A DNA stretch of 13,515 nucleotides from an uncultured Halomicronema sp. (GTDB lineage Bacteria; Cyanobacteriota; Cyanobacteriia; Phormidesmidales; Phormidesmidaceae): NCBI GenBank assembly GCA_937897665.1, contig CALCPB010000056.1, forward strand, positions 1 to 13,515, written 5' to 3'. The translations under genes and the position numbers were made by a program. This document shows, piece after piece, positions 1-13,490 of the stretch (position 1 is its first letter; each line of letters starts with the position of its first letter). Below the pieces are notes generated by a model that was not told the DNA's origin, searched no databases, and saw only the letters and a list, made by a program, of their open reading frames with translations.

Positions 1-381
1 GGTGAGCACAACCCCGTAGCTATCAAGACTTTGGATGCTGTCAATGGCGTTCAACAATGCCTCGATGGCCATAGCATCGGCAGTTGTGGGCAATAGCACT
101 AAGTCTGAACCGGTTGCGAAGTCTTCTAAGTCCTCAGCGTTGGGATTGCCTGCTGTGTCGATGATTGTGTGCTCCATGCCCCGTGACTTTTTAGGCGCTG
201 CCATGAGGGAGCAAACGCCAAAGGGTAGGGAGCCACGCTTAGCCCAGTTGAGACAGCTATGGTTAGGGTCAGCATCGACTAACAGAACATGTTCTGATGA
301 TTGAGCAAAGTAGGCGGCAAGGTGTAACGCTGTGGTTGTCTTGCCAATTCCGCCCTTAAAGCCCGCTACGGTGATTATCAT
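1..381 (-). CDS. parA: ParA-family partition ATPase (partial, C-terminus outside window)
   Basis: This is the N-terminal 127 residues of a ParA/MinD-type ATPase; the frame is still open at the left edge. Members of this family bind DNA non-specifically in the ATP form and, with a centromere-binding partner, distribute plasmid copies to daughter cells. Visible motifs are the deviant Walker A KGGIGKTT (residues 9-16, signature Lys9 and Lys14), the A' motif LLVDADPN (33-40) and Walker B TIIDTAG (72-78). Motif A lies almost at the N-terminus, so there is no N-terminal helix-turn-helix domain; this fits the small type Ib ParA class. ATG at 381 is preceded by AAGG seven bases upstream. It is the last visible gene of the minus-strand cluster, 29 nt after the ATPase gene. 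A GAACATGTTT palindrome sits in that gap and a perfect GAACATGTTC lies inside the gene, suggesting autoregulation or partition-complex binding. The family call is firm; the partner protein is not in view. Confidence 0.93.
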
Positions 382-410: not shown

Positions 411-2120
411 TTATGCTGACTCTTTGGGATCGGCGTAGCTTTGCTTTCCACAGTCATGGCAGTAGATTCGCTGCCGTCCTTTGGGTGCCCCAGCCTTTTT
501 AGTGTTGGTCGATTTGCACTTAGGGCATGTCAGCACCTCACTGGCGGCGCGGGGGAATAGCAGTTTGGGAACGGTCACACAGAAGGGCTTAGCGCTGCCC
601 TGGTGCTTGGCAATGGCATAAAAGGGGGATTGCTCCGATAGGGCTTCCAGTTCCCCTAACAGGGTGTTTTTAGCCCTGCCCTTGAGCCCATTCTCTACAT
701 AGTCAATGGCGACCTCAGATAGATAAATCTGGGCCATGTTGCGTACATCAGACCATTGAAAGCCGGGTAGGCAGTTGCCATTTTGGCCCAGCAGGATTAG
801 GAACCGGTTGCGATGCCGTCCCATCTTCACCAGGTCTTTAATGGGGCTTTTCAGATCATGGTCTTTGATGAGGGTATCTGCTTCATCAATCACCAGCACA
901 TGGGGCTTAGGTAGCTTGTCGCCTTTGGCTGATTGTCCCCATTCCCTAACCACTTCGGCGGCGGTCTCGGCATCGTCGTAGACGCTGGGTTGCTGTGCCC
1001 AGTCGGTATCACTGCCGTATGGGTCAAGCACGGTAAAGACGGCATGAACCCCCAGAGACGCTAGGCCACCGTCGATAATCTGATTGACCATGTGAGACTT
1101 GCCGCTACCAGACTGGCCCGCTATCCGTAGGTGGATGGGGGCGGCTCCCTCACCCCAGTCGTGAGTTAAGAGGCCCTTCAGTTGCTCGATGGTGAGCAGG
1201 GTAGACTTACCGGCTTTAGCCAGCTTCGATTGGGCCTTGGCTAGTTGGATGGATAGATGATTGATTTCTGCCAGCAATGGCCCTTCAATCACTGGCCTGA
1301 CTTCATCGATCACGGCCATCTTGGAGCGGCCTAACCATTCCTCGGTTTGCAGTTTTTCCCGTTGCAGCTCATTGATGGCGGCTTGTTGCTCATTGCTGAA
1401 TTGAGCCCTGGCAATATCAATCTGCTCTTGAGCTTCGGATATCAGCCGGGTTCTGATATCCCGATATTGGGCAGTGATGGCGGCAAGCTGTGACTTGCGC
1501 TTTTTCAAGTCGGCATCGATAGCTTTAATAGCTTGAACGTACCGGCCTCTGATCGTTTCGAGTTGCTGGGTGAGGGTGGCCACGGCGGCTGATTTGGCCC
1601 GCTCATGTTCCGTATTGAGTCGATTAAGTTCTAAGTTGCAGTCGTGCCTTAGGGTCTCGATTTCCATCGTCTGAGCTGTCTTAGCCTCAGCGATCGCTCG
1701 ATTATTCCACTCCTCAATATGGGCTTTTGCCTTAGCTTCCAGTTCCCGGAGCTGGGTTGTGTGGCGGGTTTCCAGTTCGCTGATTGAGCGCTGTATGTCG
1801 TTGCGTTGCAGTTCTAGGCTACGGATTTCCTGCTGTATGGCGTGGCGTTGGGCCTCATCCATGTTCACCGGCACAATCACCGGCCCTTGCAGTTTTGTCC
1901 TGGCAGCTCTGGCTACGGCCCCGACCGGTGAGCGTGATTTGAGCACCTTTGAGCCGATAGCAAGGGTGCCAGCGGTGACCAGGCCCAAGGCTCCCAAGCC
2001 ACCCAGACCGGCACCGCTACCACTGGCATAAGCTTGGGCGTCCTGACAGGGGTGCCAGAGCTGTTGACCACCGGGGGGTGATTGGGTTTCCCAGCATTGC
2101 CCATCTATCTCTTTACGCAT
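411..2120 (-). CDS. Predicted membrane-anchored coiled-coil P-loop ATPase with C-terminal zinc ribbon
   Basis: A 569-residue protein. In order: a Cys-containing N-terminus; a Gly/Ala-rich hydrophobic stretch at about 32-58 that could cross the membrane once; a long coiled coil at about 88-305; a P-loop NTPase core with Walker A GQSGSGKS (335-342), Walker [10 protein letters not shown] (407-415) and a polar strand LILLGQNG (441-448); and a zinc ribbon with CPKC (532-535) and CHDC (554-557). The ribbon's [17 protein letters not shown] pattern resembles the N-terminal ribbons of IS1 InsA-type transposases, so DNA binding is likely. The core resembles HerA/FtsK/VirD4-type ATPases, but the exact family is not certain. 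A longer reading frame begins at 2225, but ATG 2120 is preferred: GGAGG lies 8 nt upstream and it overlaps the previous gene by 8 nt. Its place directly before parA suggests DNA movement, membrane tethering or transfer of the replicon. Confidence 0.85.
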
Positions 2121-2544
2121 CGGGAGACCCTCCAAAGAGGTTTGCCCCGATGCGCTGACCAACCTTGTGATTGAGCTGTTTGGCAACAGTTTCGAGCTGC
2201 CGTAGGCGTTCCTGGGAGCTGGCAAGCTCTAGTGATTGAGTCTGGAGTGAGACCGCCCAGTCTTGCTCTAGGAGCTTATGCTGAGCCCCCAGGTACTTAA
2301 CCCGTGATTGTTCAGTAGAGAGCTGCTGTTGCTCTCCCTTGAGCTTGGTTTCAGCGCTTTTGACTTTGATATCCGCTGATTGTATTGACAGCTCCATGAG
2401 CCGGTCTTGACGGTCTTCTAGGGCCAGTGACCGGCGTTCACGGGTGACTTGGCGCTTAGCTCTATCGGCTGCAATTGAGGCGATTTGAGCCTTAGCGGAT
2501 TCGGTTTCCGCTTGCCATTCTGCGGTTGATTTTCCCTGGTACAT
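2113..2544 (-). CDS. Small coiled-coil protein of the maintenance cluster
   Basis: 143 residues, highly charged and Gln/Glu/Lys-rich. It is predicted to be almost entirely alpha-helical, with a coiled coil over about residues 10-125 and a short Gly-containing tail. No signal peptide, membrane segment or enzymatic motif is visible, and the family is not recognised. Its stop codon lies inside the start region of the following ATPase gene (8 nt overlap), and that partner also has a long coiled coil, so a direct complex between the two is a reasonable inference. The ATG start has no clear Shine-Dalgarno sequence, which is common in cyanobacteria. The 20 nt gap from the previous gene suggests one transcript. 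Confidence 0.7.
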   Translation of the reverse strand: MYQGKSTAEWQAETESAKAQIASIAADRAKRQVTRERRSLALEDRQDRLMELSIQSADIKVKSAETKLKGEQQQLSTEQSRVKYLGAQHKLLEQDWAVSLQTQSLELASSQERLRQLETVAKQLNHKVGQRIGANLFGGSPDA

Positions 2545-3239: not shown

Positions 3240-3779
3240 TCAAGCGGCAGATTGAGGCTTTGGGGCAGTGGTTACCCCCTGAGAACGTAGGTATTCACCC
3301 ACCATCGCGTTCTTGCGACTCTCAGCACTTTGGATGATTTGAGCCCCTAGAGCTGCTCCTAGTTGGTCACCCAGGTTTTGACCATTCACTAGGAGTTGAT
3401 GGGTGAGGTTTTGGGTATTGGCGGCGCTGGCCTGACAGAGGTCTGAGATTTGGCCGGTCAAGGTGGCGACGGCGGCGCTCCGGTCGGTGGCTTGGTAATC
3501 AATGGGGACCAATGCGCCCCCAGTTCCTAGCCCAGTGAAGGGATCGGCGTAGGTAGGGGTCTCAACAGTCATGGACACATGATGTCCAGACTGTTGTTCA
3601 AGTGCTTTTTTCCAAAGGGTTGCAGGGTATTTCTTGGCTTTGCCTTGTTCAATGCAAGCAACATTAAATTCCTTTTGCCCAAAAGCTTGAATCCACTGAT
3701 AGATAACAGTTCGAGAGCTGCCGGTTAGGCGGTGAATATCGCTTACGCTGTACGGCTCATTGTTCAGTTTGATGTTCAC
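3240..3779 (-). CDS. Helix-turn-helix DNA-binding protein, probable regulator heading the minus-strand cluster
   Basis: 179 residues starting at GTG 3779 with GAGG 11 nt upstream. Residues about 9-35 (YSVSDIHRLTGSSRTVIYQW) read as an N-terminal MerR/excisionase-like helix-turn-helix. A basic segment follows, then a low-complexity Ala/Gln/Leu-rich helical C-terminus (about 98-165) that may oligomerise. The gene sits 29 nt downstream of the predicted transcription start of the 3815-3844 promoter. Two 12-bp direct repeats 22 bp apart overlap that promoter and are natural candidates for its own operator. The octapeptide SAAVATLT (101-108) recurs in the coiled coil of the membrane ATPase. It could also be a centromere-binding or replication accessory protein; regulator is the best guess. 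Confidence 0.75.
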   Translation of the reverse strand: MNIKLNNEPYSVSDIHRLTGSSRTVIYQWIQAFGQKEFNVACIEQGKAKKYPATLWKKALEQQSGHHVSMTVETPTYADPFTGLGTGGALVPIDYQATDRSAAVATLTGQISDLCQASAANTQNLTHQLLVNGQNLGDQLGAALGAQIIQSAESRKNAMVGEYLRSQGVTTAPKPQSAA

Positions 3780-4229: not shown

Positions 4230-4276
4230 CTGATAAGGCGCAACGAGTAGAACGCCACAAACTTTTGAACAATTGA
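4226..4276 (+). pseudogene. Possible decayed duplicate of the start of the downstream gene
   Basis: Reading from ATA 4226, the sequence gives I-TDKAQR-VERHKLLNN and then a stop. The downstream gene at 4342 begins M-TDKAQR-ETIF. The DNA also matches around this hexapeptide (ACTGATAAGGCGCAACG versus ACTGACAAGGCACAACG). The copy starts with ATA instead of ATG and overlaps the previous stop codon. It may be a remnant of a tandem duplication. Confidence 0.3.
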
Positions 4277-4302
4277 GCAAAAACGACTTTCAAGTCGAAT
4301 TT

Positions 4303-4314
4303 CCGCAATTGCGG
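4303..4314. promoter_or_regulatory. CAATTG-core palindrome upstream of the 4342 gene
   Basis: CCGCAATTGCGG is a perfect 12-bp palindrome within TTTCCGCAATTGCGGGAA. It belongs to the same family as the sites at 5213-5230, 5342-5355 and 12683-12696. A weaker relative (TTTTG..CAATTG..CAAAA) lies at 4263-4282. It is 27 nt upstream of the preferred start codon, a typical operator position. Confidence 0.45.
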
Positions 4315-4341
4315 GAAGAGAAAACTAGAGGCCACAAGTTC

Positions 4342-4899
4342 ATGACTGACAAGGCACAACGGGAAACAATATTTGTCGGAAGTCTTGAGATAGAGGGCTT
4401 TCAGATGCCTGACGGCTCTTATCGAATGAGTCAGGCACAAGCTGCTGAATGCATCGGTACCACCGCTCAGAACGCATCAAACTTTTTGCGCTCAAAGGTA
4501 TTCAAAGCCTTGCGGGGTGAGGAAAGCACGGATCAAGGTTTTGAGACAATCGACGTTGAATCGTCGCAGCAATCCACAGGGGGAACCCGAATCAATGCTG
4601 TCCCTCTTGATGTCGTCATGCTGTTTTGGCTTTACCAATGCTCACGGGGGAATAAGCCAGCGCTCGGCCTATTAGCAGCCCTGGCCACGGAGACATTAGA
4701 ACGACGTTTTGATAGTGCTTTTGGCGTTGCCCACTCTGAAGGGGAGTATAACCAGCGGCTTGCAAATCGCTTGCAGCGCGTAGAACAGCAACTAACCTTG
4801 TTAGCCGATGCCTATGCAGAGCCCGACATCCTCAGAGAGGAGAATGAACGGCTCAAAGACCAGATCCGGCAACTCGGACAGAAACCTTTTGCGGGTTAA
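4342..4899 (+). CDS. Hypothetical protein with an N-terminal helix-turn-helix-like region and C-terminal coiled coil (185 aa)
   Basis: 185 residues. Residues 20-60 (around MSQAQAAECIGTTAQNASNF) look like a DNA-binding helix-turn-helix of the kind seen in phage antirepressor-like proteins. The middle part (85-128) is hydrophobic and helical, ending ATETLERRFDSAFG. The C-terminus (about 138-178) is a coiled coil, suggesting a dimer. The exact family is not recognised. A longer frame starts at TTG 4273, but ATG 4342 has AGAGG 10 nt upstream and follows the CAATTG palindrome at 4303-4314, so the palindrome is more likely an operator than coding sequence. The gene stands alone between the divergent region and the rep control region. 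Its product could recognise the CAATTG palindromes; this is only an inference. Confidence 0.72.
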   Translation: MTDKAQRETIFVGSLEIEGFQMPDGSYRMSQAQAAECIGTTAQNASNFLRSKVFKALRGEESTDQGFETIDVESSQQSTGGTRINAVPLDVVMLFWLYQCSRGNKPALGLLAALATETLERRFDSAFGVAHSEGEYNQRLANRLQRVEQQLTLLADAYAEPDILREENERLKDQIRQLGQKPFAG

Positions 4900-4940
4900 C
4901 CTGGTTCAGTTTTCCAGCCTTGCCCTAAGATCGGCACCCA

Positions 4941-5026
4941 AAGGAGGTGATGACAATGTGACCCTAACTACCCCAGATACACGAAGACCCCAGGCAAAGG
5001 TTTGGCGACCGCCTGAGGACTCGTAG
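4941..5026 (+). other. Very strong ribosome binding site followed by minimal ORFs
   Basis: AAGGAGGTGAT (4941-4951) is complementary to the 3' end of bacterial 16S rRNA. ATG at 4950 gives only M-T-M before a stop. An overlapping GTG at 4958, 10 nt after GGAGG, opens a 22-codon frame (start VTLTTPDTRRPQ) ending at 5026. It could be a leader peptide, a decoy site or the remnant of a lost gene. Confidence 0.35.
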
Positions 5027-5125
5027 GGGATATTTAAAATTTCTGACCCCATCGTACACGCCCCAATCGGGACGTGCAAGGTTTTGCATGGTTGTCAACA
5101 GGAAACGTTTCATGTTGGAGGCGAA

Positions 5126-5165
5126 GGCTTCTGAGCCTAGATTTAGGCGGGTTCCTCAGAAAGCC
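5126..5165. repeat. Bulged stem-loop with inner hairpin
   Basis: GGCTTCTGAG (5126-5135) pairs with CTCAGAAAGCC (5155-5165) with one bulged base. Inside, GCCTA-GATT-TAGGC (5135-5148) can form a second hairpin sharing the base at 5135. No T-run follows. It may be a structured RNA element or a cruciform in the control region. Confidence 0.35.
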
Positions 5166-5212
5166 GTATTCAGCCATCAGCCTCATGGAGCGTCCAGTTA
5201 ACACAACGCAAG

Positions 5213-5230
5213 TTTCTGCAATTGCAGAAA
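5213..5230. promoter_or_regulatory. Perfect 18-bp palindrome with CAATTG core
   Basis: TTTCTGCAATTGCAGAAA is fully self-complementary. A related 14-bp palindrome, TCTACAATTGTAGA, lies at 5342-5355. Both are followed by ATCAAA (the first G/C-flanked copy shares AGAAATCAAA with the second), so homology extends beyond the symmetric core on one side. Close copies occur at 4303-4314 and 12683-12696. It is probably the binding site of a plasmid-encoded dimeric protein. Confidence 0.55.
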
Positions 5231-5236
5231 TCAAAC

Positions 5237-5262
5237 CAAATGCGTCATGCATGTCGCATTTG
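5237..5262. repeat. 26-bp palindrome with a single central-flank mismatch
   Basis: Arms CAAATGCG (5237-5244) and CGCATTTG (5255-5262) are perfect inverse complements. The centre CATGCATG (5246-5253) is itself palindromic, and only the T at 5245 and the T at 5254 fail to pair. It lies 6 bp after the 18-bp CAATTG palindrome. It could extrude as a cruciform or bind an initiator or regulator. Confidence 0.5.
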
Positions 5263-5341
5263 AAGAACAACAGAGTGAAAACAGCAGAATGGACATCGCG
5301 ATTATTGAGCTAGCGTCCCTATTAGCAGCACCATTGATGTC

Positions 5342-5355
5342 TCTACAATTGTAGA
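5342..5355. promoter_or_regulatory. 14-bp CAATTG-core palindrome
   Basis: TCTACAATTGTAGA is perfect; compared with the 5213-5230 site, both arms changed in a compensatory way (G to A, C to T), so symmetry is kept. A third, imperfect CAATTG site (TTGCAATTGAAA) is centred 26 bp downstream at 5372-5377. Confidence 0.5.
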
Positions 5356-5383
5356 AATCAAATAAATGTTGCAATTGAAATTC

Positions 5384-5424
5384 TTTAAAAGGGGGTTTAA
5401 AGGGGGGTTTAAAGGCCCTTTAAA
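5384..5424. repeat. TTTAAA repeats separated by G-runs, with a 17-bp palindrome
   Basis: TTTAAA occurs four times, separated by G5, G6 and GGCCC. The last two form TTTAAAGG-C-CCTTTAAA (5408-5424). Alternating easily melted TTTAAA and G-runs is unusual and would suit an origin unwinding or protein-loading site. Confidence 0.4.
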
Positions 5425-5552
5425 GATTTGGGCGTCAAATTTTTCACCACCCCTAGGGGGACAAGCGTTGGCAAACTTGTGAACTGGCGCTACCCATGCG
5501 AACAGGTGTACAATAGGTCGATGCTTTTTACGGGACTCTGGTCTTGATATCG

Positions 5553-5569
5553 TTTCAACCCAGTTGAAA
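5553..5569. promoter_or_regulatory. Inverted repeat TTTCAAC-CCA-GTTGAAA upstream of the copG-like gene
   Basis: Two perfect 7-bp arms around a 3-bp centre, 34 nt before the ATG of the ribbon-helix-helix gene. It lies between the possible -10 (5509-5514) and the start codon. This position fits an autorepression site or a leader hairpin. Confidence 0.4.
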
Positions 5570-5603
5570 AGCAAATGCTGGATAAACACTTACATTTTGA
5601 TCC

Positions 5604-5750
5604 ATGGCATCTCAACCCATCACCATTCGCATACCAGACGATCAGTTATTAGCTATTGAAACCAAGGCTAAGACTGAAAATGTCAAAAGGCAAGTCATTT
5701 TAAAAATGGCTATTGCCAGGTTTGTTGAATCGCAACAACTGAATACTTAG
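5604..5750 (+). CDS. Small ribbon-helix-helix (CopG/Arc-like) protein, probable copy-number or rep regulator
   Basis: 48 residues. After a short lead, PITIRIPDD (5-13) forms the antiparallel beta-strand typical of ribbon-helix-helix repressors. Two helices follow (about 14-24 and 28-45), separated by a turn at ENVK, where the family normally has a short polar turn. Full length matches CopG-like proteins (about 45-60 residues). These bind operators as dimers, often repressing plasmid rep genes. ATG at 5604 is the only sensible start; no clear Shine-Dalgarno is present. The gene lies 98 nt before rep, with a terminator or attenuator between them and an inverted repeat upstream, closely resembling copG-rep or copR-rep control modules in other bacteria. 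The fold assignment is by eye. Confidence 0.75.
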   Translation: MASQPITIRIPDDQLLAIETKAKTENVKRQVILKMAIARFVESQQLNT

Positions 5751-5761
5751 CAAATTAAAAA

Positions 5762-5798
5762 CGTCCGCAGTTAATTAATAACTACGGACGCTCTTTTT
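5762..5798 (+). terminator. Bidirectional intrinsic terminator / possible attenuator between copG-like gene and rep
   Basis: Arms 5762-5773 and 5779-5790 form a 12-bp stem with one C-A mismatch and the 5-nt loop ATTAA, followed by CTCTTTTTAT. On the minus strand the same stem is followed by TTTTTAATTTG, so it can stop transcription both ways. It begins 11 nt after the small regulator's stop codon and ends about 50 nt before the rep ATG. No good promoter lies in that short gap, so rep may depend on read-through. Confidence 0.75.
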
Positions 5799-5848
5799 AT
5801 TAAACGCACAAGGGTGTCGATTGGAACCCGTCCCCCTAGTGCCATTCG

Positions 5849-8800
5849 ATGAGTACTGCGACACGCAAATATCGCTGGTACTCTGCCAACCCCATCCAGG
5901 CAGCAACCATGGACCGAGTTATTAATAAGTTAACACTACCGTTAACGCCGTCAACTAAATCGTCACCCGCCCCAGACAAAAGGCCCGTAAACATTGACCT
6001 AGGCCCACATTATACCGTGAACAAACATGTTCACAAGGGGGTCTCGGGTGACGATGACAGAAGCCTTAGGCACCAAGTATTTGACGCTCTTGATAATAAC
6101 CAGGGGCTACCTGACTCAGTGCTTCAAGAGTTCAGAGAAAGTGGCATCCCTGATCACCTAACTTTGGCCAATATCCAATGGCTCGAAGGGGATGCGGCCC
6201 TTGAGTACCTGCTAGGAGACAAGCTGGCCAGCTACAAGGGCCATGCTCAGCAATACGCTACCGGCCCGGTTCGGTCGCTGCTAAAGCGCTACGAATCAAT
6301 CAGAGCAGGGATGTGGTGTACCCGTGACGGTGTGCCCTATGCCAAGCCGGTCAACCCACGGCCTGACCCTAACAAGCTTGGGGGAGGAATTAAGTATGAG
6401 ACGGCCCCAGGTGCCGTGGCCTCTCCAGAGCTACCTCATCTCACCACCTGGGAACTGCAAGCCATTTGCGACCGGTTTGGATTGGCGATTGATGAAGCAT
6501 TGCAAGCTATCAAGCAACAGGCGTTGGAGCTGGGGGGCAGTTCTGAAGCATTAGCCCAGTCGTTTCATGGGCAGCTCTCCGATGGCTACACACTCCCCAG
6601 AGAAGCCTTTTGGGCATGGTGGCAAGCCAGCGGCAATCCTATCGCCATTGTTGAGGGATTCAAGAAAGCGCTGGCATTGCTGGCCAATGGCTTGCCCGCG
6701 ATCGCTGTTCGCGGCATCACTCAATGGCATCTCAAAGGGGGCATTGAACTGCATCCCGAGCTGGCCCGGTTTGCCACCAAAGGGCGGCTGATTTATGTGG
6801 TGTTCGACCAAGACACCAAGGCTAAGACCATTGCCAACGTGCGGATTCAGATTCGCAAACTGGGAGCAGTGCTAGAGGGGCGGCGGTGTAAGGTGCTGGT
6901 TCCCACCTGGGGCAGCTCCGAGGGGAAGGGAATTGATGATGTCATTTATGGGACACAAGATGAAGCAGAAAGCGCTCAACTGTCTCGACTAGATCAAATC
7001 CTGGGGGATGCCCCCACCCTGAAGCAGTTCAAACGGAGCTGTCAGACCTGGGCGGCATTCAACAACATCAAGCGGTACAACACCCTGAGCTTTCCGATTG
7101 AGCGGGAAACCGAGGGGCAGTATCTGCCTGAGCTGCCGCCGCTTCAACCCGGCGCAATCCATGTGGTAGCCGCCACGATGAACACCGGTAAGACCTACCG
7201 CATCGGTCGGGACTATGTTCAGAGCGCCTTAGCCAGCGGCTATCACGTCTTGGTCCTGTCTCCGCTGAATAGCTTGGGCCAGCAGACCGCTAAGGATTGG
7301 CAGATTGCCCATATCCACGACCAAGGAGCCAACGGCAAAGACCAAAAGGAGTTCTGGGAGTCGATACGAACGAAACCCGGCGTCGTGCTCTGCCCTGACT
7401 CCATTGCCAAACTGCCCCAATGGTTTTGGGATAAGCCCCTGTTGCTGATCTTGGATGAAGCCAACCAGGTCACCGAACATATCTGCCAGGGCGATACCCT
7501 CAAGAGCCGCTATGGCGTCGTCAATGAGCACCTGTCAAAAGTAGCCAAGCTGGCCATTGAATCAAACGGGGCCATCGTGTTGAGCGAGGCCAACATCCCA
7601 GACCGAGCGGTGAAATTCTGGCAAAGTCTTTCCGGCGCTGAGTCAGTGCGCTGCATTCGCCACCGCAAACAGGGAAGCCCCTGGGATTGCACCGTCTTTG
7701 TAGGTATGGCCTCAGGCTTCCGAGCAGAGTTGATCGCCAAGGTTGACCAGGGAGAACGGCTGCTGTTTGTGACCACATCCCAGCGGGAAGCCAAGCGACT
7801 GGAAAAGGTGCTGGCGGTTGAGGGTCGCAAGGTGGTGCGTATCGATTCAGAGACCAATGAAGGCGGTGCATTCAAACTGTTTTTCCAGGCCCCTGACACC
7901 TGGCTAGAGGTCAATCAGCCTGACATTCTCATCCTCTCTCCCAGCGCCAAAAGTGGGGTGAGCATTCAGGGCGGGGTACCGGTTGGTGAGGCTTATTTTC
8001 AAGCGGTGTGGGGATACTTCCCATCACTGGCCACAGACACCCACATGCAACTGCTGGGGCGGTATCGGCCCGCTGTTCCTCGGGTAATGTTCTGCCCTGG
8101 CTTCATTCGAGGCACGGCAGACGAATCGCTGTTCACCCCCCAGGCCATCAAGAAACGGCTCAAGAGTAACTGTCAAACCCTATCCACAGCACTAGAACTG
8201 GCCAGCACTGGCGATCAGGATTTGATGGAACTAGAGGCCACCATCCTTGAATACTTGGCTGAGAGCAAGGCCGTCAGCGGCGCTCAAAAGTCTATTGCCC
8301 ATGACGCCCTGGTGGACCGCTTAGAGGCATCGGGGCACCTGGTCACCTGCCTTCAGACCAAACTGCACAAGCCCACATCAGAACTCTGGAAACAGGTTCA
8401 AGAGGGCATCTGGCAGGATGAAGCCCTAGAACTATCCCAGACCCAGATCGAATCAGGTCAGGATGCTGACTGGGCCTATCGCGCCCTCGACTCCATTGAG
8501 TCCACCAGAGAGATCCGGCTGATTGCCCATAAGGTGCTCTGGCGTGAGGAGTTCCCAGGGGTGTCATTCGATGAACCAGACGAGGTTTACCAGGCGCTCT
8601 GTGCAGACTATGGGGCGATGCGGCGCGGGGTGCTGCTCCAAGCTAGGGCCGAGAATCTAGAGGCCACCAAGGCTGAGGATAAGGAGCACCTAGAGGCGCT
8701 GCTATCAGGTAAGGTCCGAGCCCTTCACCGGGCACCGAAAAACTTTGCCAAGGCAGCAATCATTCACCACTTGGGCTTATTGGATTTGCTCGACGGTAAG

Positions 8801-9319
8801 TCATGGAGCAATCGCGACCCGAGGGCCATTGCCATCAAACAGAAGGCGCTGAAGTATTCAAGGGAGATCAACTACTATCTACGGCTCACCATCAACGACG
8901 ATCAGACCCCCTCAGAGATTTGCAACAAGCTACTTAAGAAGCTGGGTCTAGAAGCCGAGGTCATCGGACGCCCCGGCCCCCGTGGGGTAGCTCGCGACAA
9001 GGTCTATGCCCTTGAGAATGCCGACAATGCAGTACGGATGCGATTGCTGAAAGCTTCACGGGATAGGCTTTCTGATTCCGTGTCCCCGATTTGCAATAAA
9101 GAAACTGATTCTTATACGAATCAAGGACACGCCCCCTCAAACCCCCAAGCCGTAGGCGATAGAGGGGGCGGTTGGGCTCCAGGCTGCATGGTCAGGGTGC
9201 TGGCCACAGGGGTGACCGCCCTGATTGAGGACATCAGAGACGGTTTGGCCACCTTGGGCACGGTAACCGGTGAGTTAATCGCCGATCCCGTCCCTGTTAA
9301 TGAGTTGGCACCGGCCTAA
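5849..9319 (+). CDS. Plasmid replication protein, CyRepA1-like primase-helicase (Toprim/DUF3854 + SF helicase)
   Basis: 1156 residues. The N-terminal third ends in a Toprim-like fold: IAIVEGF with Glu269 and VVFDQD with Asp320/Asp322 are the metal-binding residues of primases. A helicase follows: Walker A ATMNTGKT (442-449, Lys448), Walker B LLLILDEAN with Asp536/Glu537, SPSAKSGVSI, and MQLLGRYRP (733-741) as a motif VI with arginine-finger candidates. The C-terminal quarter is helical; a Gly-rich linker then leads to a small beta-rich end domain (from about 1114, GCMVRVLATGV). This order matches the cyanobacterial plasmid replication family CyRepA1, thought to start replication by priming and unwinding. 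ATG 5849 is the first start in frame, with a weak ribosome site; ATG 5909 is an alternative. The stop overlaps the terS start (TAATG), so replication and terminase genes are co-translated. The family call is confident, the biochemistry inferred. Confidence 0.88.
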   Translation: MSTATRKYRWYSANPIQAATMDRVINKLTLPLTPSTKSSPAPDKRPVNIDLGPHYTVNKHVHKGVSGDDDRSLRHQVFDALDNNQGLPDSVLQEFRESGIPDHLTLANIQWLEGDAALEYLLGDKLASYKGHAQQYATGPVRSLLKRYESIRAGMWCTRDGVPYAKPVNPRPDPNKLGGGIKYETAPGAVASPELPHLTTWELQAICDRFGLAIDEALQAIKQQALELGGSSEALAQSFHGQLSDGYTLPREAFWAWWQASGNPIAIVEGFKKALALLANGLPAIAVRGITQWHLKGGIELHPELARFATKGRLIYVVFDQDTKAKTIANVRIQIRKLGAVLEGRRCKVLVPTWGSSEGKGIDDVIYGTQDEAESAQLSRLDQILGDAPTLKQFKRSCQTWAAFNNIKRYNTLSFPIERETEGQYLPELPPLQPGAIHVVAATMNTGKTYRIGRDYVQSALASGYHVLVLSPLNSLGQQTAKDWQIAHIHDQGANGKDQKEFWESIRTKPGVVLCPDSIAKLPQWFWDKPLLLILDEANQVTEHICQGDTLKSRYGVVNEHLSKVAKLAIESNGAIVLSEANIPDRAVKFWQSLSGAESVRCIRHRKQGSPWDCTVFVGMASGFRAELIAKVDQGERLLFVTTSQREAKRLEKVLAVEGRKVVRIDSETNEGGAFKLFFQAPDTWLEVNQPDILILSPSAKSGVSIQGGVPVGEAYFQAVWGYFPSLATDTHMQLLGRYRPAVPRVMFCPGFIRGTADESLFTPQAIKKRLKSNCQTLSTALELASTGDQDLMELEATILEYLAESKAVSGAQKSIAHDALVDRLEASGHLVTCLQTKLHKPTSELWKQVQEGIWQDEALELSQTQIESGQDADWAYRALDSIESTREIRLIAHKVLWREEFPGVSFDEPDEVYQALCADYGAMRRGVLLQARAENLEATKAEDKEHLEALLSGKVRALHRAPKNFAKAAIIHHLGLLDLLDGKSWSNRDPRAIAIKQKALKYSREINYYLRLTINDDQTPSEICNKLLKKLGLEAEVIGRPGPRGVARDKVYALENADNAVRMRLLKASRDRLSDSVSPICNKETDSYTNQGHAPSNPQAVGDRGGGWAPGCMVRVLATGVTALIEDIRDGLATLGTVTGELIADPVPVNELAPA
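9131..9169. repeat. GC-rich inverted repeat inside the rep linker
   Basis: GCCCCCTC (9131-9138) and GAGGGGGC (9162-9169) are perfect arms around a 23-nt loop that contains GCC-GTA-GGC. The segment encodes the low-complexity linker between the helicase part and the C-terminal end domain. It may be an inserted small repeat or an mRNA structure affecting rep versus terS expression. Confidence 0.35.
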
Positions 9320-9813
9320 TGAGCAAGGAATCAGCGCTCGAACAGAAGCACCATTTGGTTGCTGAGGCTTTGGCCAATGGCAAAACCAATAAAGCTGCCG
9401 GTCAATTGGTGGATGTCTCCGAATCATCGGTGATTCGGTGGAAGCGGCGGCAAGACTTCAGGGACTTGATAGAGCACTATCGCCCTGCCAGCCGGGTTGC
9501 TCAGGTGGTGCAAGCCCAGCAGCACAATTACGACCTGCTCAAGGAAGCCAGGGACGCTGAAATCCTTCTGACCGTTGAGCTAAGGAACGCCCTCGAAAAA
9601 GTGATTGGCGTCATCTCGAAACGACTTGAGCACATGAGTGATGAAGAAATGGAGAACCTTGCTATCAGGCATCTATCGCCCCTGCTCAAGGTGGTGGGTG
9701 AGGGCCTTGGCATCGTGCAACTGAGTCACGACCGCTTTACCGGATACGGATTGCTGATTAAAGAGCTAGAGGCCATCCTTGAAAGTCGCCAAACCCTCAC
9801 AGACGCTAATTAA
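9319..9813 (+). CDS. terS: Probable phage terminase small subunit
   Basis: 164 residues. The N-terminus (about 12-50: LVAEALANGKTNKAAGQLVDVSESSVIRWKR, here split into two helices) is a homeodomain-like helix-turn-helix as in many small terminase subunits, which recognise the packaging site on DNA. Helical, coiled-coil-prone sequence follows (about 62-135), fitting the oligomerisation core that forms a ring, then a short tail. Length is typical (about 150-190). The identification leans on the gene immediately downstream, a clear large terminase subunit, which is the standard order. The start ATG overlaps the rep stop by one base and the 3' end overlaps terL by 35 nt. A plain DNA-binding regulator is the alternative. 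Confidence 0.72.
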   Translation: MSKESALEQKHHLVAEALANGKTNKAAGQLVDVSESSVIRWKRRQDFRDLIEHYRPASRVAQVVQAQQHNYDLLKEARDAEILLTVELRNALEKVIGVISKRLEHMSDEEMENLAIRHLSPLLKVVGEGLGIVQLSHDRFTGYGLLIKELEAILESRQTLTDAN

Positions 9814-11269
9814 TCGCCCGCCATTGCTGGGGCCGCTGCAAACCTTCAGGGTGAGCAGCACTAGCCTGGGTGTTGAGCCGCCCAAGACTTGGGCCAAATG
9901 GGCTGGGTTTGTCCCGTCGATTGAGATTCGCAGCGGCGGCAAGATTCAACCGATGAAGCCCTGGCCTTGGCAAGTGGCCCTAGTCGATCAGGTGCTCCGG
10001 GATTGGGCCTATCGGTCTGCTTATGTGTTTGGCAAAAGCCGCCAGTGCGGAGCCTCTGAGGGGCTTCTCAGCCTGATTCTGTGGCTGTGCTTAATCTCGG
10101 GCTCTGGCTTGGTCCCAGGTGTTGAGCGGGGGTTTACCGCCCTGGTGGCCAGTCGCACCTATCAAGACGCCATGCTGTTGGGCCGTCGTCTCCGCAGGAT
10201 GGTCAAAAGCTTAGGGCTCAAACTGGACACGGATTCCCTAAACCTGGTGGCACTTCCTAACGGGTCAACCGTGCTATTTAGAAGCGCTGACCCTGACTCG
10301 ATTGGACGCGGTATCGAGTCGGTCAACATGGTGGTTCTGGATGAGTTCAGTTTCTACTCGGAGCAGGCCCGCACATTGGAAGCGATCGCGCCTTCCATGA
10401 CCTCAGTTCCTAACAGCAAACTGTTCACTGTCAGCACCCCCAACGGCAAGGGGGATGAGTTTTGGCGACTGCTCACCTCAGCCGTGCCAGAGCTTGAGCT
10501 TGAGCGGATGCTTGAGGAGATTCGCACCGAGCAAACCGCCCCCTTCCAAATCATCCAAGGTTCCCCCCGCCTGATTCTCCTGAACTGGAGAGAGGTCTAT
10601 GGCCACAAAAAGGACACCTTTCTTCAGGAGATTAAAGAGGAGTTCAACCTGACTGAAGTCACCATCAGGCAGGAATACGAAATGGAGTTCCTAAGCGAGT
10701 CAGACAACTTCATTTTCCCCCTCGGTCTGGTCAAAAGTTGCACCGCTGGCACCCTGCTACCGGCTGAGGATGGGGCTATCTATTACGCCGGTATCGACGT
10801 AGCCACGTCTTCAGATCAGAACAGTGACTACACCGTCTGCATCATTATTGAGAAGCTTTGGGCAAAGGGTTCTGAGCGGTATCGAGTCGTGGCCTTGTAT
10901 CGCCGTCGCACCGGCTCAAGCCCTCAGCACCTGAGCGCCATAGCCAAGCTCATCGAAGCCTATGAGCCCATCTCTACAACCATCGAGACCAATGGCCCCG
11001 GCAAGGTATGGGCAGAGTCGCTATCAGGCTTAAGCTTGCCGACCGAGTTAGAAAGCTTCACCACTTCCCGCAATTCCAAAGAGGCGCTGATATCGCGCCT
11101 GGTCTTAGCAATGGAAGCAGAAAAGCTATGGATCCCAGAGGGGCCAATCACCGAAGAATTGTTGAGCTTTAGGAGGAATAAGAACGGCCAAATGGAAGCC
11201 GCAAATAATAGCCACGATGATTGCGTTATCAGCTTAGGACTCGCGTTAACTGGAGCCACAAAGACATGA
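9779..11269 (+). CDS. terL: Phage terminase large subunit (ATPase and nuclease)
   Basis: 496 residues with both terminase domains. ATPase: a deviant P-loop KSRQCGAS (86-93), with the lysine at the front as in lambda-type terminases, Walker B VVLDEF (185-190, Asp188/Glu189) and coupling motif TVSTPNG (217-223). RNase H-like nuclease: GIDVA (Asp340), TIETNG (Glu403) and HDD (Asp480/Asp481), the expected three acidic clusters. All key residues are present, so the motor looks intact. TTG 9779 is the assigned start: GAGG lies 6 nt upstream within terS; a GTG at 9851 would shorten it by 24 residues. In phages this protein cuts concatemeric DNA and pumps it into the procapsid. Here it is co-operonic with a plasmid replication gene, with no portal or capsid in view. 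Confidence 0.9.
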   Translation: MKVAKPSQTLINRPPLLGPLQTFRVSSTSLGVEPPKTWAKWAGFVPSIEIRSGGKIQPMKPWPWQVALVDQVLRDWAYRSAYVFGKSRQCGASEGLLSLILWLCLISGSGLVPGVERGFTALVASRTYQDAMLLGRRLRRMVKSLGLKLDTDSLNLVALPNGSTVLFRSADPDSIGRGIESVNMVVLDEFSFYSEQARTLEAIAPSMTSVPNSKLFTVSTPNGKGDEFWRLLTSAVPELELERMLEEIRTEQTAPFQIIQGSPRLILLNWREVYGHKKDTFLQEIKEEFNLTEVTIRQEYEMEFLSESDNFIFPLGLVKSCTAGTLLPAEDGAIYYAGIDVATSSDQNSDYTVCIIIEKLWAKGSERYRVVALYRRRTGSSPQHLSAIAKLIEAYEPISTTIETNGPGKVWAESLSGLSLPTELESFTTSRNSKEALISRLVLAMEAEKLWIPEGPITEELLSFRRNKNGQMEAANNSHDDCVISLGLALTGATKT

Positions 11270-11883
11270 ATTATCGAAGCATGATGAATGACTGGGCCAA
11301 CATGGGAATGCCCAATCGCAGCTCATACGGAACCCACAGCCCCCGCTTCCCTGAACGGGATGAGGACAGCAAACCTCGATACATTGCCTCGGTTTGGATG
11401 GACGGGGCAAAAGCTTCAGCCGTCAAATTTGCTTGCAATGGGAACAGTATCGCCCCGTTGATTGATTGGCAGTCTCACACTAAAACAATGGACTTTAGCC
11501 TCTCTAAAGTCATTGAGCAATGGCATTCTGAAACGGAGCTAACTAAGGTTCTGGCACCTACGAGACCCAGTACAGAAGACAAAGACCATCCTCTGAAGCG
11601 ACTAATTAAGTCGGCTCAAGTTGCGATTGTCCCAATCACCGATATTTTTGAGGGCCTTGCCGCCTATCAGGAGTCTACAGAAGCGAGTCAGGTCGATTGG
11701 TCACAATGCAAGCTCAAGGGAAGGATTGAGGAGCTGGTTAGACGTGCCGACAATGGTCCCAGCCCGCTCCTAATGGCTTTTCTTCAGGGGATCTTGCACA
11801 GAGACAAGAGTGAGGGGGGGGATTTGTGCCACACCTTTGGGAGCCCCTACAGCTCAACTCTCCTGGACGACTATTTGATATGA
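11266..11883 (+). CDS. Unknown protein translationally coupled to terL (205 aa)
   Basis: 205 residues from ATG 11266, which overlaps the terL stop as ATGA and has GGAG 10 nt upstream; a TTG 45 nt earlier is in frame but less likely. No family is recognised. The N-terminus is rich in Met, Asn and aromatic residues; residues about 40-70 (YIASVWMDGAKASAVKFACNG) look like a beta-sheet; the middle and C-terminus are mixed helical, and the end is LLDDYLI. No signal peptide or membrane segment is seen. In phages the gene after terL is often the portal, but this protein is far too short for one. It is the last gene of the rep-terminase operon and probably works with packaging or the helper interaction. 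Confidence 0.72.
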   Translation: MNYRSMMNDWANMGMPNRSSYGTHSPRFPERDEDSKPRYIASVWMDGAKASAVKFACNGNSIAPLIDWQSHTKTMDFSLSKVIEQWHSETELTKVLAPTRPSTEDKDHPLKRLIKSAQVAIVPITDIFEGLAAYQESTEASQVDWSQCKLKGRIEELVRRADNGPSPLLMAFLQGILHRDKSEGGDLCHTFGSPYSSTLLDDYLI

Positions 11884-12000: not shown

Positions 12001-12020
12001 TTGAGAAATATAGAAAAGCT

Positions 12021-12077
12021 GGGCCAATTTGGGCCAATTTGGGCCAGCTCGGGCCAATTTGGGCCACAAAGTCAGGC
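12021..12077. repeat. Array 1 of 10-bp GGGCCAATTT repeats
   Basis: GGGCCA recurs at 12021, 12031, 12041, 12051 and 12061, exactly 10 bp apart; most units are GGGCCAATTT and one is GGGCCAGCTC. The array ends CACAAAGTCAGGC. All units lie on one face of the helix, as in protein-binding arrays. Confidence 0.75.
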
Positions 12078-12140
12078 AAAAAGGGCTGTTTTTGTTGCCT
12101 TCCAAGTTTCCGAAAGAGGGAGATGGTTCAGGTTCTTTGT

Positions 12141-12204
12141 CCAATTTGGGCCAATCTAGACCAATTTGGGCCAATCTAGACCAAATTGGGCCACAAGGTC
12201 AGGC
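12141..12204. repeat. Array 2 of 10-bp repeats, alternating GGGCCAATCT and AGACCAATTT forms
   Basis: CCA recurs every 10 bp from 12141 to 12191. Units alternate between GGGCCAATCT and AGACCAATTT, creating TCTAGA palindromes between them. The array ends CACAAGGTCAGGC, the same terminal motif as array 1, exactly 127 bp later. The shared ending shows that the two arrays arose by duplication. Confidence 0.75.
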
Positions 12205-13153: not shown

Positions 13154-13490
13154 CAACATGTTCTAAATAGTACTGCATTACTAGAACATGTTCTATAAGC
13201 CTTAAACCAATAGAACAAGTTGAAGCTATATGTCAAGCCTGGAGAATTAGAACATGTTCTATACATAAGGAATCCGTATCATTCAGGAACATGTATAGAG
13301 ATTTTGAGTTCAAAAACATGTTCTGATTTGAATTTCTGATGATACATGTTTCTCGCCTGAATCGCCAGAACCCTTGTATACCAATGCTTTCAGCGATTAT
13401 TAAGATTCACAGCGCCGCCCTTAGAACATGTACATTAATTATTGCAACACAAAACATGTTCTGATTGATAGGATATTCTGATACATGTTC
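13154..13490. repeat. Array of about ten AGAACATGTTCT-type palindromes, probable partition centromere
   Basis: Perfect 14-bp TAGAACATGTTCTA occurs at 13182-13195 and 13248-13261. Variants around ACATGT or its near match are at 13154, 13213, 13287, 13314, 13342, 13424, 13452 and 13481. Neighbouring centres are mostly 27-30 bp or 37 bp apart; one 82-bp gap is close to three such steps. The pairs at 13314/13342 and 13452/13481 also share flanking CTGATT, suggesting duplication. The same site lies at parA (396-405 and 285-294). Repeated palindromes of one family near a ParA gene point to the centromere where the ParA partner binds. The stretch 13086-13153 before it holds a HIP1 octamer and no gene. 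Confidence 0.7.

Follow-up and report, generated by a model that had tools for sequence, protein, structure and literature searches.

A complete terminase behind a plasmid replication gene in a Halomicronema contig: a candidate helper-dependent phage-satellite plasmid

Why would a cyanobacterial plasmid carry a complete phage-type DNA-packaging motor? The question is raised by a 13,515-bp contig of an uncultured Halomicronema sp. (CALCPB010000056.1), in which a plasmid replication gene (rep) is followed by genes for a putative small (TerS) and a full large (TerL) terminase subunit and by a fourth gene, X. This whole stretch, here called the window, is an entire contig (G000:C56) of a 5.2-Mb genome assembled in 1047 contigs; the genome has 20 matches to PF00502 and thus carries phycobilisome genes, so the host is a cyanobacterium. 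In our judgement the window is probably, though far from certainly, part of a phage-satellite plasmid that depends on a helper but has a packaging specificity of its own. An earlier note, made from the sequence alone, had offered a capsid-less satellite plasmid as one explanation, and it is the one that fits best: no shell family was listed for the relatives of the element, their TerL proteins are interleaved with those of phages, and TerL is under constraint.

The replication and terminase genes

The genes in question are the following.

5849..9319, + strand: rep, CyRepA1-like replication initiator (DUF3854 plus helicase-like region; PF12965, NF042913), 1156 aa, stop codon TAA
9319..9813, + strand: terS-like gene, ATG at 9319, helix-turn-helix (HTH) plus helical protein of 164 aa, putative small terminase subunit
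9779..11269, + strand: terL, full large terminase subunit (ATPase plus RNase H-like nuclease; PF03237 and PF17289, phrog_2), 496 aa, TTG start
11266..11883, + strand: gene X, 205 aa, ATG at 11266 in a 4-nt ATGA overlap with terL, no family match

The open reading frames (ORFs) are as the earlier note described them, overlapping by 1, 35 and 4 nt on one strand; its term "fused" is apt for overlapping genes, not for a fusion protein. The GC content is even across the rep/terminase junction (0.55-0.57). The Rep that precedes the motor is CyRepA1-like. The protein matched DUF3854 (PF12965) with 109.6 bits, above the cut-off, and aligned to positions 4-593 of the 595 in the CyRepA1 model NF042913, scoring 191.3 bits where the cut-off is 200. 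Its best plasmid matches (36-38%) were on Synechococcus elongatus plasmids, one of them annotated as a DUF3854 protein.

Both domains of TerL were recognized, Terminase_6N with 34.9 bits (cut-off 22) and Terminase_6C with 45.4 bits (cut-off 22.6). The protein matched phrog_2 (E 7.9e-33) and no NCBIfam model, and the profile of its family matched T4 gp17 structures (3EZK, E 3.6e-29). The TTG start at 9779 is backed by the aligned N-terminus of a relative (P0002), the next in-frame start being the TTG at 9824. The statement that all ATPase and nuclease residues are intact proved correct for the Walker B Asp-Glu, the coupling-motif Thr-Pro and the acidic nuclease residues and needs refinement for Walker A. 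The latter is deviant (KSRQCGAS), with Ala at the T4-type Lys position and a Lys (K86) at the start of the motif, a lambda-gpA-like arrangement. K86 is unchanged in all 15 rows of TerL alignment A1. In a wider set of 27 rows, 26, the window among them, have D340, E403, D480 and D481; the 27th row is partial and without that region.

The assignment of TerS relies on relatives and position. Family scores of the protein alone are weak (phrog_7344, E 0.0013; HTH_23, 21.3 bits, under the cut-off of 24.6), and those of the three Nostocales relatives go down to E 1.7e-9. The window TerS is 23% identical to the TerS of a complete plasmid, G015:C68 (pair E 3e-8), and adjoins TerL upstream. BLAST clustering placed it in a group of eight, the other members being the genes at the TerS position in six further elements and a gene of an S. 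elongatus plasmid. Separately, a Rep and a TerS-like HTH gene were observed on the circular S. elongatus plasmids NZ_CP143854 (L009, 4739-5179) and CP143530 (L128, 3413-3859), neither of which gave a TerL match. They are a possible, not established, SaPI-like comparator, i.e. TerS-only satellites.

Relatives of the element

A tblastn search of 72,556 plasmid records (PLSDB) with the window TerL returned eight records, seven of which are small cyanobacterial plasmids of 13.8-26.8 kb; the same seven plasmid records were recovered with the TerL of AP018305 as a second query. The eighth, a 620-kb Thioclava record (24%, 61% covered), was dropped from the plasmid set. The seven plasmids, G015:C68, G059:C833 and the window make up the ten TerL elements considered below, the first eight of which are complete. 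G015:C68 (37.6 kb) has the order Rep-TerS-TerL-X, and G059:C833, an incomplete contig, carries TerS and TerL between a Rep-like gene and another ORF; both genomes belong to the family of the window's host. The search for this neighbourhood that the earlier note proposed therefore found the Rep-TerS-TerL order again in two other genomes, and this recurrence, together with the uniform GC content, excludes a chimeric assembly at ~9319.

In seven of the ten elements terS-terL lies downstream of rep on the same strand. The distance from Rep to terS is -1 nt in the window and 63, 308, 377, 396, 945 and 1500 nt in the six others that share this order; in the last three elements, the gene taken for rep because of its large size is not upstream. 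Because the spacing varies and the 1-nt overlap is not conserved (gaps of -1 to 1500 nt), co-translation of Rep and terminase, which the note had suggested, was rejected as a conserved mechanism. In the nine elements with a whole terL, terS and terL overlap or are at most 39 nt apart.

Gene X gave no match in Pfam, PHROG or NCBIfam, and a homolog follows terL on G015:C68 (27.7%, E 2.5e-4). The slot after terL is occupied by X in the window and by a 154-aa gene, followed by a portal gene, in G015:C51 (L032, 4188-8053). This TerS-TerL cluster lies in the same genome as the capsid-less G015:C68 and is a candidate prophage or helper; its portal-like protein (454 aa) shares 29% identity with the portal of a Cylindrospermopsis phage (E 4e-37) and has no PHROG or Pfam match.

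The TerL family is rare, as few matches were obtained in order-wide and phylum-wide samples. Within the host's taxonomic order, four of 63 genomes (its own included) gave five TerL matches, three of them of plasmid type (the window, G015:C68 and G059:C833); the TerL of G019:C11 has a tail J protein nearby, on a contig of 7.7 Mb. Among 386 genomes sampled across the phylum 13 had a TerL match, the 12 besides the window at ≤34.4 bits, and at E 1e-20 the window was the sole match to a profile built from six plasmid TerLs. A protein scan of genome contigs and viral contigs with the window TerL gave no match, a scan with alignment A2 gave two weak loci in viral contigs and none in genome contigs, and a DNA pattern scan for a longer, 16.9-kb contig with the same TerL found nothing.

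The TerL tree (27 rows, ten plasmid TerLs) shows the kinship with phages. The plasmid and phage labels require five changes on it, at least four of which are forced by the starred branches. One 100/100 clade contains five plasmid TerLs and, within it, that of a Nodularia phage, which is 61.5% identical to that of AP018306 and 58.7% to that of AP018215, while the TerLs of AP018305 and AP018306, from one strain, are 53.6% identical. The TerL of contig L046 groups (100/100) with those of two Chroococcales linear plasmids. The viral contigs L046/L179 (one contig) and L178 encode TerLs 63-64% identical to that of a Gloeothece plasmid, and L046 is phage-like by its anti-repressor and DNA-metabolism genes (six ORFs scanned). 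These contigs were considered as helpers and not so called, no portal having been found in the stretches examined. Compared with the two genes before terL of the Nodularia phage, AP018306 TerS gave no BLAST match (E<1), and the window TerS matched one of them at only E 0.026. So the motor is common to plasmids and phages, and the recognition subunit differs.

Constraint on TerL was seen in a single pair of plasmids, AP018286 and NC_014535, whose TerLs are 77% identical with synonymous sites saturated, as against 62% for the protelomerase and 62% for the presumed Rep (a large gene without a Pfam match). At such divergence the higher identity of TerL indicates that it is kept by selection.

All eight complete TerL elements encode a telomere resolvase (protelomerase; PF16684, 83-192 bits, cut-off 27), and seven of the eight have terminal inverted repeats or end palindromes. 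The repeats are exact in G015:C68 (1040 nt), AP018286 (1099 nt), AP018305 (1491 nt) and AP018306 (186 nt, plus a 40-nt palindrome at each end) and imperfect in NZ_CP026691 and NC_014535; AP018215 has palindromes at both ends, and neither terminal repeats nor end palindromes were found in NC_019679 as deposited. Since a protelomerase is encoded and the ends are mostly inverted, the complete relatives are probably linear plasmids. AP018305 (L004), AP018306 (L006), AP018215 (L007) and NZ_CP026691 are marked circular in the collection. So are AP018302 (L130) and AP018304 (L131), observed alongside, which encode protelomerases and have mirrored features at both ends in their annotation. AP018305, AP018306, AP018215, AP018302 and AP018304 are probably linear molecules.

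Shell genes were sought in PHROG scans (E 1e-3) of 64 + 64 + 38 = 166 proteins of the ten elements, with re-scans (E 0.01) of the 43 and 47 less explained ones. The scans covered (i) 128 of the 164 listed coding sequences (CDS) of the seven plasmids, TerLs, insertion sequence (IS) transposases and the shortest CDS being left out, (ii) 16 of the 29 ORFs (≥100 aa) of G015:C68 besides TerL, (iii) 10 ORFs of G059:C833, and (iv) 12 of the window. No portal, major capsid or connector family was among the matches listed, which were the best 25 of 60 and 25 of 37 families in the first two scans and the best 25 of 35 in the first re-scan; for AP018305, AP018306 and AP018215 the re-scan gave its full result, nine families. 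The families listed were terminase, replication, partition, repressor, integrase, endonuclease, toxin-antitoxin and hemolysin-named ones. PF05065 and PF04860 gave no match in any of nine targets, namely the seven plasmid records plus two genomes, G015 and G059. A two-sequence cyanophage portal profile, which finds the portal of G015:C51 (E 3e-23), found none on the ten TerL elements. Among the scanned proteins of the window, an incomplete contig, there was no capsid family and no integrase family; integrase genes are present on AP018286 and NC_014535. The strongest size argument for a lack of shell genes is NC_014535, complete at 13.8 kb with 11 listed CDS.

The window's backbone and the competing explanations

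The rest of the window consists of the following features.

1..381, - strand: parA, end lost at the contig edge (127 aa seen; phrog_164, E 9e-21; PF01656)
411..2225, - strand: coiled-coil P-loop ATPase with C-terminal zinc ribbon, FtsK-like by weak matches (phrog_1358, FtsK/SpoIIIE-like, E 3e-5)
3240..3779, - strand: small plasmid-backbone gene (ORF only; no Pfam or PHROG match)
4273..4899, + strand: gene matching a phage family of unknown function (phrog_32599, E 3.9e-14)
4900..5848, no strand: intergenic stretch before rep containing direct repeats as well as a near-palindrome of 26 nt at ~5249 (repeat analysis), possible origin/control region
13154..13461, no strand: six GAACATGTTC-type palindromes clustered at the right contig end (motif count)

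The partial ParA scored 73.3 bits against NF041546, below the cut-off of 180. The N-terminal start of the coiled-coil ATPase is uncertain; by BLAST clustering it groups with proteins of seven other TerL elements. Members of this family, mostly zinc-ribbon-tailed, were thus observed in eight of the ten TerL elements (e.g. L004:4455-6527, L034:11298-13424 and window 411-2225) and also occur on several protelomerase plasmids without a TerL match, and the ATPase is therefore assigned to plasmid upkeep, not packaging. At 5212-5362, upstream of rep, two 24-nt repeats (88% alike) accompany the near-palindrome; these are possible replication control sites. The GAACATGTTC motif has nine matches in the window at ≤1 mismatch (0.45 expected), those outside the right-end cluster lying at 285-294 and 396-405 by the parA start, and one at 6023; the cluster is possibly a centromere/partition site or a subtelomeric array. 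Downstream of X (12020-12204) a 10-bp tandem motif (TGGGCCAATT-like) occurs in two blocks, which also form inverted repeats. An exact end overlap of 11-200 nt, looked for as a sign of circularity, was not found, and the telomere motif published for pNPM8-10 (AAATTAACRGAC) had no match in the window at ≤2 mismatches.

If the window is part of a helper-dependent satellite plasmid, it would be maintained through CyRepA1-like replication and ParA, and a tailed phage growing in the same cell would be its helper. The plasmid TerS would mark and select plasmid DNA. The plasmid TerL, still able to dock on the phage portal, would cut this DNA and pump it into helper proheads, whatever part X may have in this, and the plasmid DNA would leave the cell in the helper's particles. 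We consider it an even call whether the plasmids form an unnamed satellite class, i.e. linear cyanobacterial protelomerase plasmids whose only recognized virion-related function is a full TerS-TerL motor, which would have exchanged TerL with large cyanophages but retained a TerS of their own, and which would put their own DNA into the heads of another phage without encoding any shell. The window would then be a member from a further host lineage.

Several observations, besides the bounds of the PHROG matches given above, weigh against the satellite reading. Neither a helper nor induction, particles or a cos/pac site came to light. Some shell- or lysis-type families were matched weakly, by one protein each: two tape-measure families at E 2.3e-4 and 0.0043, an Rz-like spanin family at 0.0014, an endolysin family at 0.0036 and a head scaffolding family at 0.0086. 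We read these as probably chance or coiled-coil matches. The portal profile found nothing in seven phage-like stretches (L035, L046, L047, L048, L050, L178 and L179), so its reach is short. In AP018286, NC_014535 and NC_019679, terS was assigned by position and rep by size only. No protelomerase was found on the two incomplete contigs, the window and G059:C833; G059 has two on other contigs, and the genome of the window yielded neither PF16684 nor a PF04860 portal or PF05065 capsid. These absences say little either way, because the assembly is incomplete and PF04860 misses the portal-like gene of G015:C51; for the latter reason PF04860 was also discarded as a helper marker in this genome. As the contig stops in parA and its genome shows no protelomerase, linearity of the window's replicon can only be inferred. 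Most protelomerase plasmids, moreover, lack a TerL match: one protelomerase query matched 24 PLSDB records, 21 of them without TerL, the three with TerL being AP018305, AP018215 and NZ_CP026691, from which it follows that TerL is not needed for linear maintenance. Finally, terL on pNPM9 (NZ_CP026691) is broken by an insertion sequence, so its loss is tolerated there.

The last observation leads to the rival that we regard as unlikely yet the most serious, namely that the elements are decayed phage-plasmids, derived from N15-like telomere phages through loss of the virion genes, with the terminase as a functionless leftover. Protelomerase plus terminase is an N15-like pair. Repeated retention of the motor alone is not expected of a relic, however, and in nine of the ten capsid-less elements TerL is open with its catalytic residues, the other eight being only 27-44% identical to that of the window. 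TerL also evolves more slowly than either the presumed Rep or the protelomerase, to judge from the single pair of plasmids compared, and this argues against decay. For the Nostoc N6 linear plasmids decay was proposed in 2018, with the disrupted pNPM9 terminase in view (PMC5987646).

Reuse of the terminase within the plasmid, as the earlier note also considered, is rather improbable. Here TerS-TerL would process plasmid DNA (concatemer or telomere resolution, partition) without packaging, as the position of terS-terL downstream of rep and a backbone with ParA and the coiled-coil ATPase might suggest. The complete relatives, however, already have a protelomerase for end resolution, the 21 of 24 protelomerase records manage without a TerL match, and the plasmid TerLs are mixed with phage TerLs and form no single clade. 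An ordinary phage-plasmid, with virion genes on the missing part of the contig or too divergent to be recognized, is very improbable. In its favour, the window stops in parA, the longest contig also recorded for its TerL measures 16,949 bp, orphan genes are many (110 singletons among the clustered proteins), and even the portal-like gene of G015:C51 escapes PF04860. Against it stand the lack of portal and capsid among the families listed for eight complete relatives, the small complete plasmid NC_014535, and the gene after terL, which is X, without a family match.

Should the satellite reading hold, it would provide a transduction route for cyanobacterial plasmids typed non-mobilizable, as are all eight PLSDB records with a TerL match (one of them outside the cyanobacterial TerL-plasmid family). 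The TerL-portal interface would be the point at which satellite and helper must fit. Direct tests could use strains with known names: Fischerella sp. NIES-4106, Calothrix brevissima NIES-22, Gloeothece verrucosa PCC 7822, Chondrocystis sp. NIES-4102 and Rivularia sp. PCC 7116. The Fischerella strain has two plasmids with an intact TerS-TerL pair. On this evidence several plasmids labelled circular in their records are probably linear.

Comparison with known systems

The telomere phages N15, PY54 and phiKO2 have full virion gene sets, in contrast to the cyanobacterial TerL plasmids, which are without portal or capsid among the families listed. What they share is a linear hairpin plasmid with protelomerase and terminase (phages named in PMC5987646). 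The same source, from 2018, describes the linear plasmids pNPM8-pNPM10 of Nostoc sp. N6 and reports hairpin ends for pNPM9, which is one of the seven TerL plasmids and has both protelomerase and terminase. According to that paper an IS interrupts its terminase, and the linear elements may be remnants of phages; terminases of this kind occur in intact form on six other plasmid records and on three genome contigs.

Group G8 of glacial viromes, reported in 2015 as putative satellite phage-plasmids, resembles the TerL plasmids in being small (<16 kb), plasmid-like and satellite-like, one member listing ParB and terminase (PMC4490671, available part). It differs in its circular scaffolds, P4-like prim-pol and integrase, the ParB/terminase member also lists a phage tail gene, and no protelomerase is mentioned in that part of the paper.

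A similar lifestyle has been proposed for PISP/cf-PISP, plasmid phage satellites of Vibrio named in April 2026 (PMC13230959). These are small extrachromosomal elements with parA, repA and packaging genes and without tail genes, for which vertical maintenance as plasmids and horizontal spread in helper-made particles have been proposed. The Vibrio elements are circular, with capsid protein E/capsid-related genes or a full head set, whereas the cyanobacterial TerL plasmids have TerS and TerL with no recognized head gene, and the complete ones have a protelomerase and mostly terminal inverted repeats. The window, an incomplete contig, carries the plasmid genes parA and rep and no PICI/cf-PICI-type capsid gene was found on it. 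As regards satellites in general, it has TerS-like and TerL genes that may redirect packaging, and no complete virion gene set was seen in the matches listed for the ten elements. The open literature, a coverage outside which most subscription papers and bioRxiv preprints fall, yielded, in the texts available, no description of the linear-plasmid terminase family as such.

By analogy, a TerS of its own that redirects packaging to satellite DNA is also what PICIs and SaPIs bring; SaPIs, however, are chromosomal and use the TerL of the helper, whereas the window encodes its own complete TerL on a plasmid (PMC10690885, available part). Satellites described so far either borrow the terminase of the helper, bring only a TerS, or carry a whole head plus TerL, as cf-PICI do (in part from the same source). 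A plasmid that brings the motor without the shell would, if the satellite reading is true, be an intermediate among these types.

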